NCBI GenBank assembly: GCA_018436095.1
Contig: JAHDMJ010000009.1
Coordinates: forward strand, 1-64,000
Reading direction: 5' to 3'
Length of the DNA stretch: 64,000 nt
Source: Clostridia bacterium
GTDB taxonomy: Bacteria > Bacillota > Peptococcia > DRI-13 > UBA5745
The notes below the pieces were generated by a model, which ran no database searches, was not told the DNA's origin, and worked only from the letters and a program-made list of their open reading frames with translations. Both the position numbers and the translations under genes were made by a program. Positions 7,092 through 62,920 of the stretch are shown here, piece after piece (position 1 is the stretch's first letter; the number at the start of each line of letters is the position of its first letter).

Positions 7092-7318
7092 GCCGGCGGC
7101 GGCAAATTGGGACGGGGCCGGTCTGGGCCGAGGCTTATTGCTCGACTGTTTGCTTAAGCTAATTGCTTAATTGCAGGCTTGTTACTCAGTTTGTTTGGAT
7201 AAGGGGGCTTCCGTCAGAGTACAAACTTGCAAGTTTGCACAAAGGAGGCTGTGCCGGGCTTCCCCTTCCCAAGTTGGATTTGGATATGAACCTATTCTAC
7301 GTATCCGGGCAAAAGAAA
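7092..7318. repeat. Intergenic stretch with a solitary copy of the dispersed motif
   Basis: The segment 7211-7232 is the reverse complement of 21079-21100 over 22 bases, and 7221-7241 carries ACAAACTTGCAAGTTTGCAC, a nearly perfect palindromic form of the forward motif. A weaker reverse-orientation relative is seen at 7171-7186. No gene is visible between the HD gene and the tRNA terminator. Confidence 0.6.
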
Positions 7319-19459: not shown

Positions 19460-19603
19460 GATCAACCATCCTTTGAAAATCTTACTATCATCTTATTTCT
19501 TTGTCCGGCATAAGTCAACCGAACCTTGGTTTATTATGGCTTTGCCTTCTCGTTGACTAGCCGGACCAGAATCGTTAGAATAGTAGAAAAGCAAAAACGG
19601 AAA

Positions 19604-19661
19604 GCAAAAGCGGAAAAGGAAAAAGCAGGTAAGCAAAAGCGGAAAAGGAAAAAGCAGGTAA
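19604..19661 (+). repeat. 29-bp direct repeat upstream of the coiled-coil gene
   Basis: Two identical 29-bp units, purine-rich (19604-19632 and 19633-19661), sit just before the ribosome binding site AGGAGG (19672-19677). They would be translated as Lys/Arg-rich sequence if the longer frame from 19526 were used, but the ribosome binding site favours the later start, so they more likely lie in the leader. Confidence 0.85.
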
Positions 19662-19681
19662 GCCCGCTTGCAGGAGGCGCC

Positions 19682-20938
19682 ATGGCCTGGAAATTGTCCC
19701 TCTTTGGTTATCAGGAGAGCGAAGTAAACGAATACTTGCAGACCCTTTCTCAAGTCCGGGGAGCGGAAGTGGCCTCGCTTAGAGAAAAGGTCCGCTTGGC
19801 TATGGAGACCAACATTCGGCAGGATATCATATTAGCCGATTTACGCCGGGAAGCGGCAGAGCGAAAGAACCGCTTAAAGACTGTGGAGTCCCGGCTGATT
19901 CTTATTTACTACAGGATGCTGCTGAATCAAGGTTCGGAGGCCCGGGCCGGTACTGATTTTTTAGAACCGGAGATGGAGCGCTCTGAGGAATATTTGCGGC
20001 GGCTGGAGCAAAGAGAGCAAATTGCGGCAAAGGCAAGCAAGCGATTAAATGCTTTGCTTAAACAGATTGGCCGATGGGAGAAAGAAATGGAAAAACCAAA
20101 GAATTTTAATACCAGCTTATTGGGCGTGGCTCCAAAGGATTTGGAAGAATATTTGCTGCTTCGGGAAAAAAGTCATCAGGAAGCCATAGCGGATCTTTCG
20201 GAAAAGTTAAATCAATTGGAAAAAGCCATTGCTCTTCAGGGCGAAGAGATCAAGGCTTTGGGAGGCCTTTTTGAGCGGCCGGAAATGCAGAAGCCTTTCA
20301 TTGATTTAGCCGAGCGCTTTTTGCAGCGCTTTGAGCAATCTTTGGAGAATGTAGCCCGGGAAACCATAACCCAAAACAGAGCGGATCTGACGGAAAGAGA
20401 AAGGGAATGTGAGAGGCGGGAAAAGGAACTGCGCTTGCAGATTGCCCGTTGCCGCAGGAAGGTCAACACACTTTTGCGCAATTTGAATCAGCCACAAAAA
20501 GAGCAGTCTTTGCCGCCCTCCGCCGGTTTTTTTGGAGAGGCTCAGGAGGTTCTTGAAGAAGTTCAGGAGTCAGCGGATGCCGGGAGGAGAGAGGCGGCAG
20601 GTGCGCCCGCCGGGGCTGAAACGGCCGGGGCCGGAGAAAAAAACGCCGAGCCGGCCCGGAACTCCGCAACCGCTGGAACCGCTGGAACCGCTGGAACCAC
20701 CGCAACTGCTGAAACCACCGGAACCGCTGGAACCATCGGAATGGGCAGTATCACCGATATAGCCGATTCCCGGCAGAGCCTCAAGTTCCGCTATCTGCTT
20801 GGCAAGACAGCCGGCAGCGATTTGGCCGGCAATCAAGGGGAGCTGCTGATCAAGCAAGGCCAGGCTATCGGCCTGAAAGAGGCGGAGGTCATTTATCAGC
20901 AGGGGTTATTGGATCAGCTTGTCCGCTGTTTGGCATGA
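19682..20938 (+). CDS. DivIVA-like coiled-coil protein
   Basis: A 418-residue protein, mostly coiled coil. The N-terminus LSLFGYQESEVNEYLQTLSQ resembles the membrane- and pole-targeting head of DivIVA/GpsB proteins (G-Y-x-x-x-E-V-x-x-F/Y-L). A long charged helix with heptad character spans about 30-300. A Gly/Ala/Thr low-complexity stretch built from short GGAACC-type repeats is at about 313-351. A compact C-terminal piece (LLGKTAGSDLAGNQGELLIKQGQAI) resembles small beta-domains seen at the ends of other Clostridia proteins. A role in cell shape or division is a guess from the head motif. ATG 19682 is set by AGGAGG at 19672-19677. Confidence 0.6.
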   Translation: MAWKLSLFGYQESEVNEYLQTLSQVRGAEVASLREKVRLAMETNIRQDIILADLRREAAERKNRLKTVESRLILIYYRMLLNQGSEARAGTDFLEPEMERSEEYLRRLEQREQIAAKASKRLNALLKQIGRWEKEMEKPKNFNTSLLGVAPKDLEEYLLLREKSHQEAIADLSEKLNQLEKAIALQGEEIKALGGLFERPEMQKPFIDLAERFLQRFEQSLENVARETITQNRADLTERERECERREKELRLQIARCRRKVNTLLRNLNQPQKEQSLPPSAGFFGEAQEVLEEVQESADAGRREAAGAPAGAETAGAGEKNAEPARNSATAGTAGTAGTTATAETTGTAGTIGMGSITDIADSRQSLKFRYLLGKTAGSDLAGNQGELLIKQGQAIGLKEAEVIYQQGLLDQLVRCLA

Positions 20939-21070
20939 ATTGAGCATGAATTTAACAGCGCCATGATATACGGCAGTATTGCCGGGCACAGCCCTGTGAC
21001 ACAAGGCGCTGCTGCTCCCATGGCGATTTTGCGCAAACATATAAGTTTGCTTATGAGTTGATAGCATTAT

Positions 21071-21317
21071 GCTCAAAATTGCAAGTTTGTACTCTGACGG
21101 AAACGATTCTGTGCAAAATTGCAAGTTTGTAAAGGCCTTTAGCTATAATAATCCAGTTTTTAGCCTGTTTTTGGGCTAAAAATGGCCAAAAAGCAGTGAA
21201 CTGACCGGACAAACTTGCAATTTTGCACAGTTAGCTTCTGTAAATGCTAACAAACCTGCAATTTTGCTCAGTTAGCTTCTGCAAATGCTAACAAACTTGC
21301 AATTTTGCTCAGTTAGC
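21071..21317. repeat. Hairpin repeat cluster B1 (R R, hairpin, F F F)
   Basis: Two reverse copies of the motif (21071-21090 and 21111-21130, each ending CAAAATTGCAAGTTTGT) are followed by a central hairpin (TTTTTAGCC 21157-21165 with GGCTAAAAA 21174-21182). Three forward copies then start at 21209, 21250 and 21291, in tandem at an exact 41-bp period and each ending CAGTTAGC. The whole can fold as one long imperfect hairpin. Confidence 0.85.
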
Positions 21318-21336
21318 CCAGCCAATAGCCCAAACC

Positions 21337-21684
21337 GAGGGCACTGAAAAGCCGCAATCCGTATAGTGGCTAAAATCGGATTCGCTGTTTCCAATTGCTC
21401 AAAAATCGAAGTTGTGTGACGGCAAGCAGGAGATTTTACCTATTTTCGCTTTCAGATGCTCAAAAATCGAGGTTGTGTGACGGATTAGAGGGCAGTTTTT
21501 CCTAATCTGAGCCAATTTAAAGGAAATAGTGCAACACAACTTCGATTTTTGTGCAGTTAGCCTTTGCTTTTAGCCTAAATTTGATGTCCGCTGCAACACA
21601 ACTTCGATTTTTGTGCACCTCGCCCGATTTGCCGGCCGGCTTTTTCAGTGCCCTCCAACAAACCTGCAATTTTGCAAAGTTAGC
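21337..21684. repeat. Hairpin repeat cluster B2 (R R, F F) with outer inverted repeats
   Basis: Outer inverted repeats GAGGGCACTGAAAAGCCG (21337-21354) and its complement with one extra base (21637-21655) enclose two reverse motifs (21397-21417, 21458-21478) and two forward motifs (21534-21561, 21596-21616). Here the core is TCGA instead of TTGCAA. A further forward copy with the TGCAA core lies just outside, at 21658-21684. Confidence 0.85.
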
Positions 21685-21745
21685 AGTGCCAAGGCATGCT
21701 GCAGCAGATCAGAATAGAGCTGTTGATTAAGCAAAAATCAAAAAC

Positions 21746-21797
21746 CGTTTCACCGGATAGCTGATCTGTTATCAAGCAGCCAATGAAACGGTTTTTT
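21746..21797. terminator. Bidirectional terminator in the repeat region
   Basis: AAAAACCGTTTCA pairs with TGAAACGGTTTTT around a 34-base loop, with T runs in both directions. It could end the coiled-coil gene transcript on plus and the F420-ligase-family transcript on minus. Confidence 0.78.
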
Positions 21798-21879
21798 CGT
21801 ATTTATTAATTTATTAGTGAGACTCATTATGGCAGTGGCATGAACACTCATGTTCCCTGGCCATCAGGTGCCATGCCGC

Positions 21880-22012
21880 TGCTATGCGAATATCGCGCCG
21901 CTGTCAGCCAGACGTGGTGCCGCCGCTATGCGAATATCGCGCCGCTGTCAGTCAGACGTGGTGCCGCCGCTTTGCGAATATCGCGCCGCTGTCAGACATG
22001 GTGCCGCCGCCA
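21880..22012. repeat. 44-bp tandem repeat, about three copies
   Basis: The GC-rich unit containing GCGAATATCGCGCCGCTGTCAG recurs with an exact 44-base period (TGCGAATATCG at 21885, 21929 and 21973). The last copy is 4 bases shorter. It sits immediately downstream of the minus-strand gene ending at 22023. GCGAATATCGC and its neighbours can form small hairpins. Confidence 0.88.
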
Positions 22013-22022
22013 TGATTCGCCA

Positions 22023-23207
22023 TTATGATGCGTAGTTGTCGAAGTAGCCCTGGATCAAAATAACCGGCGTACCCTTGTCGCCGCTGCCGCTGGTCAGGTC
22101 GCAGAGGCTGCCTAAAAGATCCGTTAGCTGCCGGGGGGTGGTGCCTTCGCTTACCATGTTGCCTACAAGATTATTTTCCTTGGACTTAATAGCATGTATC
22201 ATGGCCTCTTTGGCGGCGTCGCCGGCCAGGTCCTTAAATTCTGTGTCGGCCAGGTATTTCATTTTGATTTCATTGGGGGTGCCGCACAGGCCGGGAGTAT
22301 AGGCCGGAGAAACCACCGGGTCTGCCAACTCCCAGATTTTGCCCACAGGGTCTTTGAAAGCGCCGTCGCCGTATACCATGACCTCTACCACTTTGCCTGT
22401 AAGGGCTTTCAGCCTTTGCTGAACGGCGTCAACTACTTCCTGGCCCCTTTCCGGAAACAGCTTGACCGTTTCCTCGGTAGCCTTATTTGAACCTAAAAGA
22501 CCGTAGCGGGAATTGAAGCCGCTGCCGTCAATCGGCTGATTGAGAATCTGGTCCAGGGTGATGACAGTCTTGGCGCCGGCTGCCTGCAGCAGGCGTTTGG
22601 AACGGCTCCGGGTATGAATATCAGCGGCAATAACCACATCTGTATGCTCCAAAATCTTGCAGGGGTCGTTGGAGAAGATAAAGGAGATTTTGCCTTCTTC
22701 CGCCTGCTCTTTATAAAAGCTGACGTAATCAATGCCGGTAAAAGGATGAATGCATTTTTCGCCGAAGATACGGCGGAAATCCTCTTCCATAAGGGTATCC
22801 GTATAAGGATTGATGCCTTTCTCATCCAGCTCTTCCAGACTGACTAAATGGTTGCCCACCTCGTCGGCAGGATAGCTGAGCTGCAAGGTCAATTTTTCCA
22901 CGCCTTTAGCAATACCCTTCAGCAGTAAGGAAAAACGGTTGCGGCTGAGGATGGGGAACAAAAGCCCCACATGGCCGCCGCCGGTCAAGGCCTTGATATG
23001 AGTTGCAATTTGATCTGTAGTAGCGTAATTATTTTGGGAACGGGCGACAATGGACTCGGTAATTCCCACCACATCCCGATCCCGCAGCATAAAGCCTTCC
23101 GATTCCCAGGCTGCTTGTAATGAATCTACAACAATTGTGACTAAATCGTCCCCCGGCTTAATAATAGGGGTACGGATGCCACGGGCTATAACTCCGGTAG
23201 TTCTCAT
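22023..23207 (-). CDS. F420-0:gamma-glutamyl ligase (CofE) family protein
   Basis: A 394-residue protein of the CofE family (F420_ligase domain), which in F420 producers adds glutamate to coenzyme F420-0. The N-terminal RGIRTPIIKPGDDLV segment and the VVGITESIVARSQNNY block are typical. Later come the VVIAADIHTRSRSK, MVYGDGAFKDPVGKIWE and GTPNEIKMKYLAD segments. It is longer than archaeal CofE (about 250) and belongs to the Bacillota version, whose true substrate is unknown because these organisms generally lack F420. No other F420 gene is visible here. GAGGTGAGG precedes ATG 23205-23207. Confidence 0.82.
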   Translation of the reverse strand: MRTTGVIARGIRTPIIKPGDDLVTIVVDSLQAAWESEGFMLRDRDVVGITESIVARSQNNYATTDQIATHIKALTGGGHVGLLFPILSRNRFSLLLKGIAKGVEKLTLQLSYPADEVGNHLVSLEELDEKGINPYTDTLMEEDFRRIFGEKCIHPFTGIDYVSFYKEQAEEGKISFIFSNDPCKILEHTDVVIAADIHTRSRSKRLLQAAGAKTVITLDQILNQPIDGSGFNSRYGLLGSNKATEETVKLFPERGQEVVDAVQQRLKALTGKVVEVMVYGDGAFKDPVGKIWELADPVVSPAYTPGLCGTPNEIKMKYLADTEFKDLAGDAAKEAMIHAIKSKENNLVGNMVSEGTTPRQLTDLLGSLCDLTSGSGDKGTPVILIQGYFDNYAS

Positions 23208-62636: not shown

Positions 62637-62920
62637 GGCTGCTCCTTTGGAAAACGTGCAAAAATGCAGGTTTGTTAGCGTTCACAGTGGCTAACTGAGC
62701 AAAAATGCAGGTTTGTTAGCGTTTGAAGACTAGTTTTCGGCTGTGGCCAGTCGCTTTTGCCTATATCTAGTGCTGCGGCGAGGAAGTACACTCTATTCCG
62801 ATGGGGCGACACACTTTAAACTTGAAATTTTGCACAAAAACAACGGGACAGCAGATACAAAGTTGAAATTTTGCTCAGTTAGCTGCCGCAAATAACCGCT
62901 AACCTGCAATTTGAGCAGCT
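62637..62920. repeat. Hairpin repeat cluster D (R R, F F)
   Basis: Two reverse motifs with an ATGCAGG core (62656-62680 and 62690-62721, both ending GTTTGTTAGCG) face two forward motifs with a TTGAAA core (62816-62835 and 62857-62883, the second ending CAGTTAGC). A further partial forward copy lies at about 62899-62917. Short outer pairing GCTGCTC/GAGCAGC frames the cluster. The core differs from all other clusters while the motif ends are conserved. Confidence 0.8.

Follow-up and report, generated by a model that had tools for sequence, protein, structure and literature searches.

Inverted end-sites and phased centres on a helical length ladder in a repeat family of two Clostridia genomes

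Insertion sequences of the IS21 family are delimited by TG...CA termini, a short target duplication and repeated end-sites. The ends of IS21, and also those of Mu and Tn7, hold several transposase sites (L1/L2 and R1/R2), and their DNA is wrapped on a transposase tetramer (PMC10122671). The lengths of the internal eliminated sequences (IESs) of Paramecium and Blepharisma follow a ~10-bp (10.2-bp) periodicity, which has been read as DNA looping within a transposase-like complex (PMC3464196, PMC9942856). Short transposons based on IS50/Tn5 are described, in the papers that cite Goryshin 1994 (PMC3464196, PMC3660474), as needing the right helical phase between their ends. Here we report a bacterial repeat family from a Clostridia bacterium (assembly GCA_018436095.1) and from a sister species, in which inverted sites are spaced along a ladder of ~10.2-10.8 bp, in both species and in unrelated centres. 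The starting point was a window of 64,000 nucleotides, the whole stretch of DNA that was analysed (contig JAHDMJ010000009.1, positions 1 to 64,000), in which a preliminary description had noted a dispersed motif with constant ends.

The motif is far above chance frequency, as that description had supposed. The pattern TTTTGCNCAGTTAGC (at most one mismatch) has 159 matches in the 3.7-Mb genome against a single match for the reversed control pattern, and in the window, where 0.38 matches to ACAAACNTGCAATTTTGC (at most three mismatches) would be expected, 13 occur, a number reached by 0 of 100 shuffles. The TTCGA form, ACTTCGATTTTTGTGCAGTTAGC (at most three mismatches), has 80 genome matches and 0 in the control. 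The frame of the motif is a 21-bp site, ACAAACYTGCAATTTTGNNCA, and the proposed arrangement of reverse copies followed by forward copies is the rule across loci. The picture of constant ends around an exchangeable core holds for the frame, which is common to the sites, but the variation in the core mostly reflects different element families, and GTTAGC, counted earlier as part of the motif, is the spacer of the 41-bp arm only.

The repeat family is restricted to one genus. Among 60 relatives searched, the pattern clearly exceeded background only in one genome of the same genus (18 matches versus 0). When the extended end sequence was scanned against 84,980 species, a set in which the window's own genome was possibly masked, it matched the same-genus genome again, the MAG 'Clostridia bacterium SM1-B15.1' (the sister species) and also returned one lone single-site match in a Nitrospirae MAG (L202). 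No match to the repeats was found in phage, plasmid and viral collections, and an Rfam search identified only tRNAs in the window and none at the motif loci. Both genomes are incomplete drafts, the sister being a MAG, and several contigs start or stop inside repeats. The array loci were examined as stretches around motif matches; those of the window's genome come from among the matches listed and form a large sample, not a census.

The focal locus at 20939-21684 lies between two convergent genes, one at 19526-20938 (+, no Pfam match) and one at 22023-23207 (-, F420 ligase family). It had been taken for a single locus with a single core, but it is two nested elements, a TTGCAA array broken by a separate 319-bp TTCGA element. 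The features of this locus, followed by the two other places in the window, are:

21030-21678, no strand: array A, with TTGCAA core; a centre flanked by two inverted arms, in which 21-bp sites recur every 40/41 bp
21030-21050, - strand: weak, degenerate site (2.8 bits) at the outer end of the 40-bp arm
21070-21090, - strand: site ACAAACTTGCAATTTTGAGCA of the 40-bp arm (33.9 bits)
21110-21130, - strand: inner site ACAAACTTGCAATTTTGCACA of the 40-bp arm (38.1 bits)
21131-21208, no strand: centre of 78 bp, in which A/T runs recur at ~10-bp intervals (z=11); inner site distance d=96
21209-21229, + strand: inner site of the 41-bp arm, then GTTAGC spacer
21250-21270, + strand: site of the 41-bp arm
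21291-21311, + strand: site of the 41-bp arm
21328-21336, + strand: left flank GCCCAAACC of the inserted element, an imperfect 9-bp target duplication (7/9)
21337-21655, no strand: IS1182-type MITE of 319 bp with TTCGA core, inserted at the array's ACAAACC
21337-21350, + strand: left inverted end GAGGGCACTGAAAA of the 319-bp MITE
21396-21417, - strand: TTCGA site
21457-21478, - strand: TTCGA site, 61-bp spacing
21534-21555, + strand: TTCGA site, inner distance 77
21596-21617, + strand: TTCGA site, 62-bp spacing
21642-21655, - strand: right inverted end TTTTCAGTGCCCTC of the 319-bp MITE
21656-21664, + strand: right flank CAACAAACC of the inserted element, imperfect target duplication
21658-21678, + strand: site at the outer end of the 41-bp arm, shifted away by the 319-bp insertion
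62655-62877, no strand: second array, with sites at 62655 (-), 62696 (-), 62816 (+) and 62857 (+); d=117
7165-7241, no strand: third place, with one site at 7221-7241 (+) and a degenerate partner at 7165-7182 (-)

The second array mixes TGCAT and TTGAAA cores. Other repeats lie around the focal locus: ~2.8 tandem copies of a 44-bp G+C-rich unit (96% matches) just downstream of the element at 21874-21995; a T-ended 26-bp inverted repeat, AAAAACCGTTTCA...TGAAACGGTTTTT, between the convergent genes at 21740-21796, which is absent from the terminator scan list; and 9/18-bp tandem repeats CCGGAACCGCTGGAACCA at 20656-20741, within ORF 19526-20938, which encode a low-complexity stretch.

The basic unit in the sister species is 118-186 bp long: a TG...CA element that occurs in both orientations and has inverted ends, TGNGCAAAATTGCAAGTTTAAAGTGTC, conserved over 26-28 bp. 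We found 82 of these, and 81 belong to one homology family with a median core identity of ~0.67. Right outside TG...CA stand 4-bp direct repeats, mostly AAAA or TTTT (z=5.1 versus shuffled partners), with a per-base match of 0.57/0.77/0.68/0.55 and only 0.14 at the fifth base; the usual duplication is AAAA in a GGAAAATG-like target. Because elements of either polarity have AA or TT flanks on both sides (18 and 12; target-oriented polarity is 22:21), the 4-bp repeat is a target duplication; the alternative that it forms part of the element was rejected on the same ground. One sister element is missing from the orthologous site of the window, beside a tRNA gene, and element positions common to both species seem to be separate insertions, not clear orthologues. 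Of 62 elements that could be placed, a single one overlaps a large ORF and 21 lie at convergent gene pairs, compared with 48/331. As is typical of MITEs, the elements are short, non-coding, high-copy, dispersed and intergenic, with terminal inverted repeats and target duplications of 4 bp (sister species) or 9 bp (IS1182-type). The array elements of the window's genome, array A included, have no clean target duplication. Some sister elements (L214, L099, L100) are directly followed by GTTAGC, the 41-bp arm spacer of the window's genome, which is a possible clue to the construction of the arms. Another subset (at loci such as L254, L234 and L103) lies in a longer common flank, approximately GTTAACGTCTGCAARCCTTGGAAAA / AAAATGRYC, suggesting that these copies may have inserted into a further repeated sequence.

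The larger class of elements has inverted ends GAGGGCACTGAAAAAGTC and 9-bp target duplications. These GAGGG-ended elements are mostly 191-196, 233-235 or 318-327 bp long, most have 8-9-bp direct repeats, and at least 11 perfect 9-bp duplications were found over both species. A genome of the same order carries a 1730-bp IS with ends GGGGCCACTGAAAAAGT/GAGGCCACTGAAAAAGT, which encodes an IS1182 transposase (E 9e-104) and is flanked by a perfect 9-bp duplication. The ends of this IS are nearly identical to those of the GAGGG-ended MITEs, and an autonomous parent for these ends is thereby found at the family level. The element at 21337-21655 has its ends and duplication size in common with the IS1182 element, as an IS1182-derived MITE should, and copies of this type are plainly mobile. 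The window's genome retains a broken IS1182 transposase in two frames (L136:1399-2489; C4 near 168970), and no matching inverted ends were located for it. IS1182-type MITEs often sit at the ACAAACC of an array site (L009, L022, L023, L039, L042 and window position 21337), and this MITE family appears to target the array family. The distance from the IS1182 end to the first site varies by ~7 bp, whereas the spacing between sites keeps its phase; the phasing therefore belongs to the sites and not to the IS1182 ends.

Inner-site distances in the window's genome are 87, 95-98, 106-108, 117-118, 129, 136-138, 148 and 160 bp, and an unbiased pattern search that admitted any gap of 60-121 bp returned adjacent pairs only at 87, 96-98, 108-109, 116-119 and 136-138. 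When centres were collapsed by homology, 21 quasi-independent lengths between 80 and 200 were left, with a best period of 10.2 (R=0.76, p<=5e-5; 0 of 20,000 Monte Carlo draws were as good). Lengths in the sister species are 118-120 (3 elements), 130-131 (6), 139-142 (44), 150-153 (24), 161-162 (4) and 186 (1), the classes 121-129, 132-138, 143-149 and 154-160 are empty, and elements hold within 1-2 bp of their class despite ~33% sequence divergence. In the TTCGA family, distances are mostly 66-67, 75-78, 98, 117, 127 and 137-140, with a site spacing of 61/62. Spacings of 63, 168 and 196 and the sister length of 186 are off the ladder. One absolute phase is common to nine groups of unrelated centres (R=0.87, p=0.0006); centres were grouped post hoc and copies are related, and this p-value and those for the A/T register below serve as guides.

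A second regularity is found within the centres. A/T periodicity is visible in single centres of most families, and the centre in the window is one of them. Whether measured from the left or from the right site, the A/T phase agrees among ten centre groups (period 10.3; family-level R 0.89/0.88, p ~4e-4 each). It also agrees between the species, at about 8.0/8.1 and 7.6/7.6 (the latter in the sister), and the register is unchanged after trimming 20 bp off each edge. The conserved property is helical spacing together with A/T register, which these genomes display along with dispersal, inverted ends, both target duplications and the absence of one element from an orthologous site.

We consider it somewhat probable that the motifs mark the ends of non-autonomous mobile elements (MITEs) and that a short, phased loop of DNA brings the two ends of each element into synapsis. 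We infer the loop synapsis, the binding protein and the transposase, and the process may be pictured as follows. A DDE-type transposase would bind the ends and join them across only ~90-160 bp of DNA, a loop that would be about as short as the DNA persistence length, or shorter, and in which free twist would be prevented. Since so short a loop would be unable to twist freely, centres would consist of whole helical turns, and the elements that persist would be those with both ends on the same helix face. The fixed register of the A/T runs, one every ~10 bp, would then mark DNA that is bent into the loop or wrapped by protein. In the window's genome, the ends would have grown into arms by the addition of sites 40/41 or 61/62 bp apart, near whole turns, and some site pairs are carried inside the IS1182-type MITEs (GAGGGCACTGAAAAAGTC ends, 9-bp duplication). 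The parent transposase of the TG...CA ends was not found in either genome, both of which are incomplete. Matches to the rve domain in both genomes are IS3-like only, the IS21 transposase has 0 matches in either genome, IS21 loci elsewhere in the order are without these ends, and no long pairs of TG...CA ends around a gene occur at the sister loci. IS3 and IS21 elements were rejected as the parent because their ends do not match.

The ladder might instead be purely mutational, with centres of ~10-bp repeats gaining or losing whole copies and no looping involved, an explanation that we find unlikely. Sister centres contain a 10-bp repeat, TGTATTTGGC, whose copy number correlates with length (r=0.41), and in one centre family of the window's own genome a 21-bp step corresponds, by eye, to the loss of a repeated GGCTAAATT segment; length steps probably do arise by mutation of 10-bp repeat copy number. 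However, unrelated centre families without that repeat have the same absolute phase and the same A/T register to both ends, and lengths stay close to their class at the ~33% divergence given above. We give rather low credence to the view that the arrays are now protein sites used by the host (for nucleoid wrapping, looping, local gene control or a BIME-like role), with phase kept for that function and not for transposition. The multi-site arms are in phase and have a strong A/T register, the elements are intergenic and, in the sister species, lie more often at convergent gene pairs, and the arrays are without clean target duplications, all of which would suit such a role, but target duplications flank the simpler elements of the sister species whichever way these are oriented, the IS1182-type copies move, and position is not fixed, as the sister element missing at its orthologous window site shows. 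A further, doubtful reading is that the family could be a bacterial transposon type with multi-site ends, wrapped as one helically phased nucleoprotein body with sites, spacers and centre all in one 10-bp register, and possibly retained as a chromosome-structuring site after transposition stopped.

Very improbable, in our judgement, is an origin as REPIN/REP-like or RNA hairpin elements, although the inverted groups are foldable as one long RNA hairpin (predicted for 21060-21320 of the window, z=-7.7). The preliminary description was right about a dispersed, mobile-like repeat family in inverted groups, but its REPIN-like logic finds no support: the RAYT-type (Y1) transposase domain PF01797 has 0 matches in the 98.5% complete genome, the loci have no Rfam match, and DDE transposition fits because of the 4-bp or 9-bp target duplications. 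The hairpin itself can be drawn for each locus on paper, but there is a systematic difference between an element's two ends. Cores had been said to agree within a locus, but in the TTGCAA family left-right identity is 0.860 versus 0.859 for shuffled pairs (p=0.41), and the loci L019, L020, L039 and L040 each mix TTGCAA and TTGAAA cores. Between the two ends of a single sister-species element, 5.59 of 10 variable columns match, versus 6.19 when ends are shuffled; because this is less than in shuffled pairs, the left end of each element is distinct from the right. Selection for a hairpin was rejected on these grounds, arms being non-concordant within loci and sister ends anti-concordant, and the suggested local homogenisation finds no support in the same comparisons.

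If synapsis through a phased loop is correct, these genomes contain a natural helical-twist experiment in bacteria, with dozens of diverged elements in two species, intermediate lengths nearly all missing, and a bend register written into unrelated centres. The twist and bend limit on short transposons would become testable from genomes, loop-constrained MITEs could be recognised elsewhere, and attention would be directed to a candidate transposase with repeated end-sites. In the open-licence literature, to which our search was confined (subscription papers were outside its scope), we came across no bacterial MITE for which a length ladder had been reported. The IS1182-family MITEs are alike in their GAGGGCACTGAAAAAGTC ends, 9-bp duplications and same-order IS1182 element, but here the interior consists of unrelated TG...CA sites, as a pair or as an array. 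REPINs and BIMEs are similar as intergenic, high-copy, inverted groups of short conserved sites, and differ in that our family has no RAYT, has target duplications and has two unlike ends. The ends of several sites recall the IS21 family, and the extra-site arms resemble IS21, Mu and Tn7 ends; the TG...CA termini, short target duplication and repeated end-sites are shared by resemblance only, and the repeats are 23 bp apart in IS21 compared with 40/41 or 61/62 here, where neither genome has an IS21 transposase. The IS50/Tn5 experiments, as the citing papers relate them, used designed constructs, whereas this is a natural genome-wide population. The IESs have a similar length ladder and the same looping logic as we propose, but they are eukaryotic, mostly unique-copy and removed by a domesticated piggyBac transposase, while our repeats are bacterial and form a family, with ends conserved over 26-28 bp, arms of several sites and A/T runs in phase.
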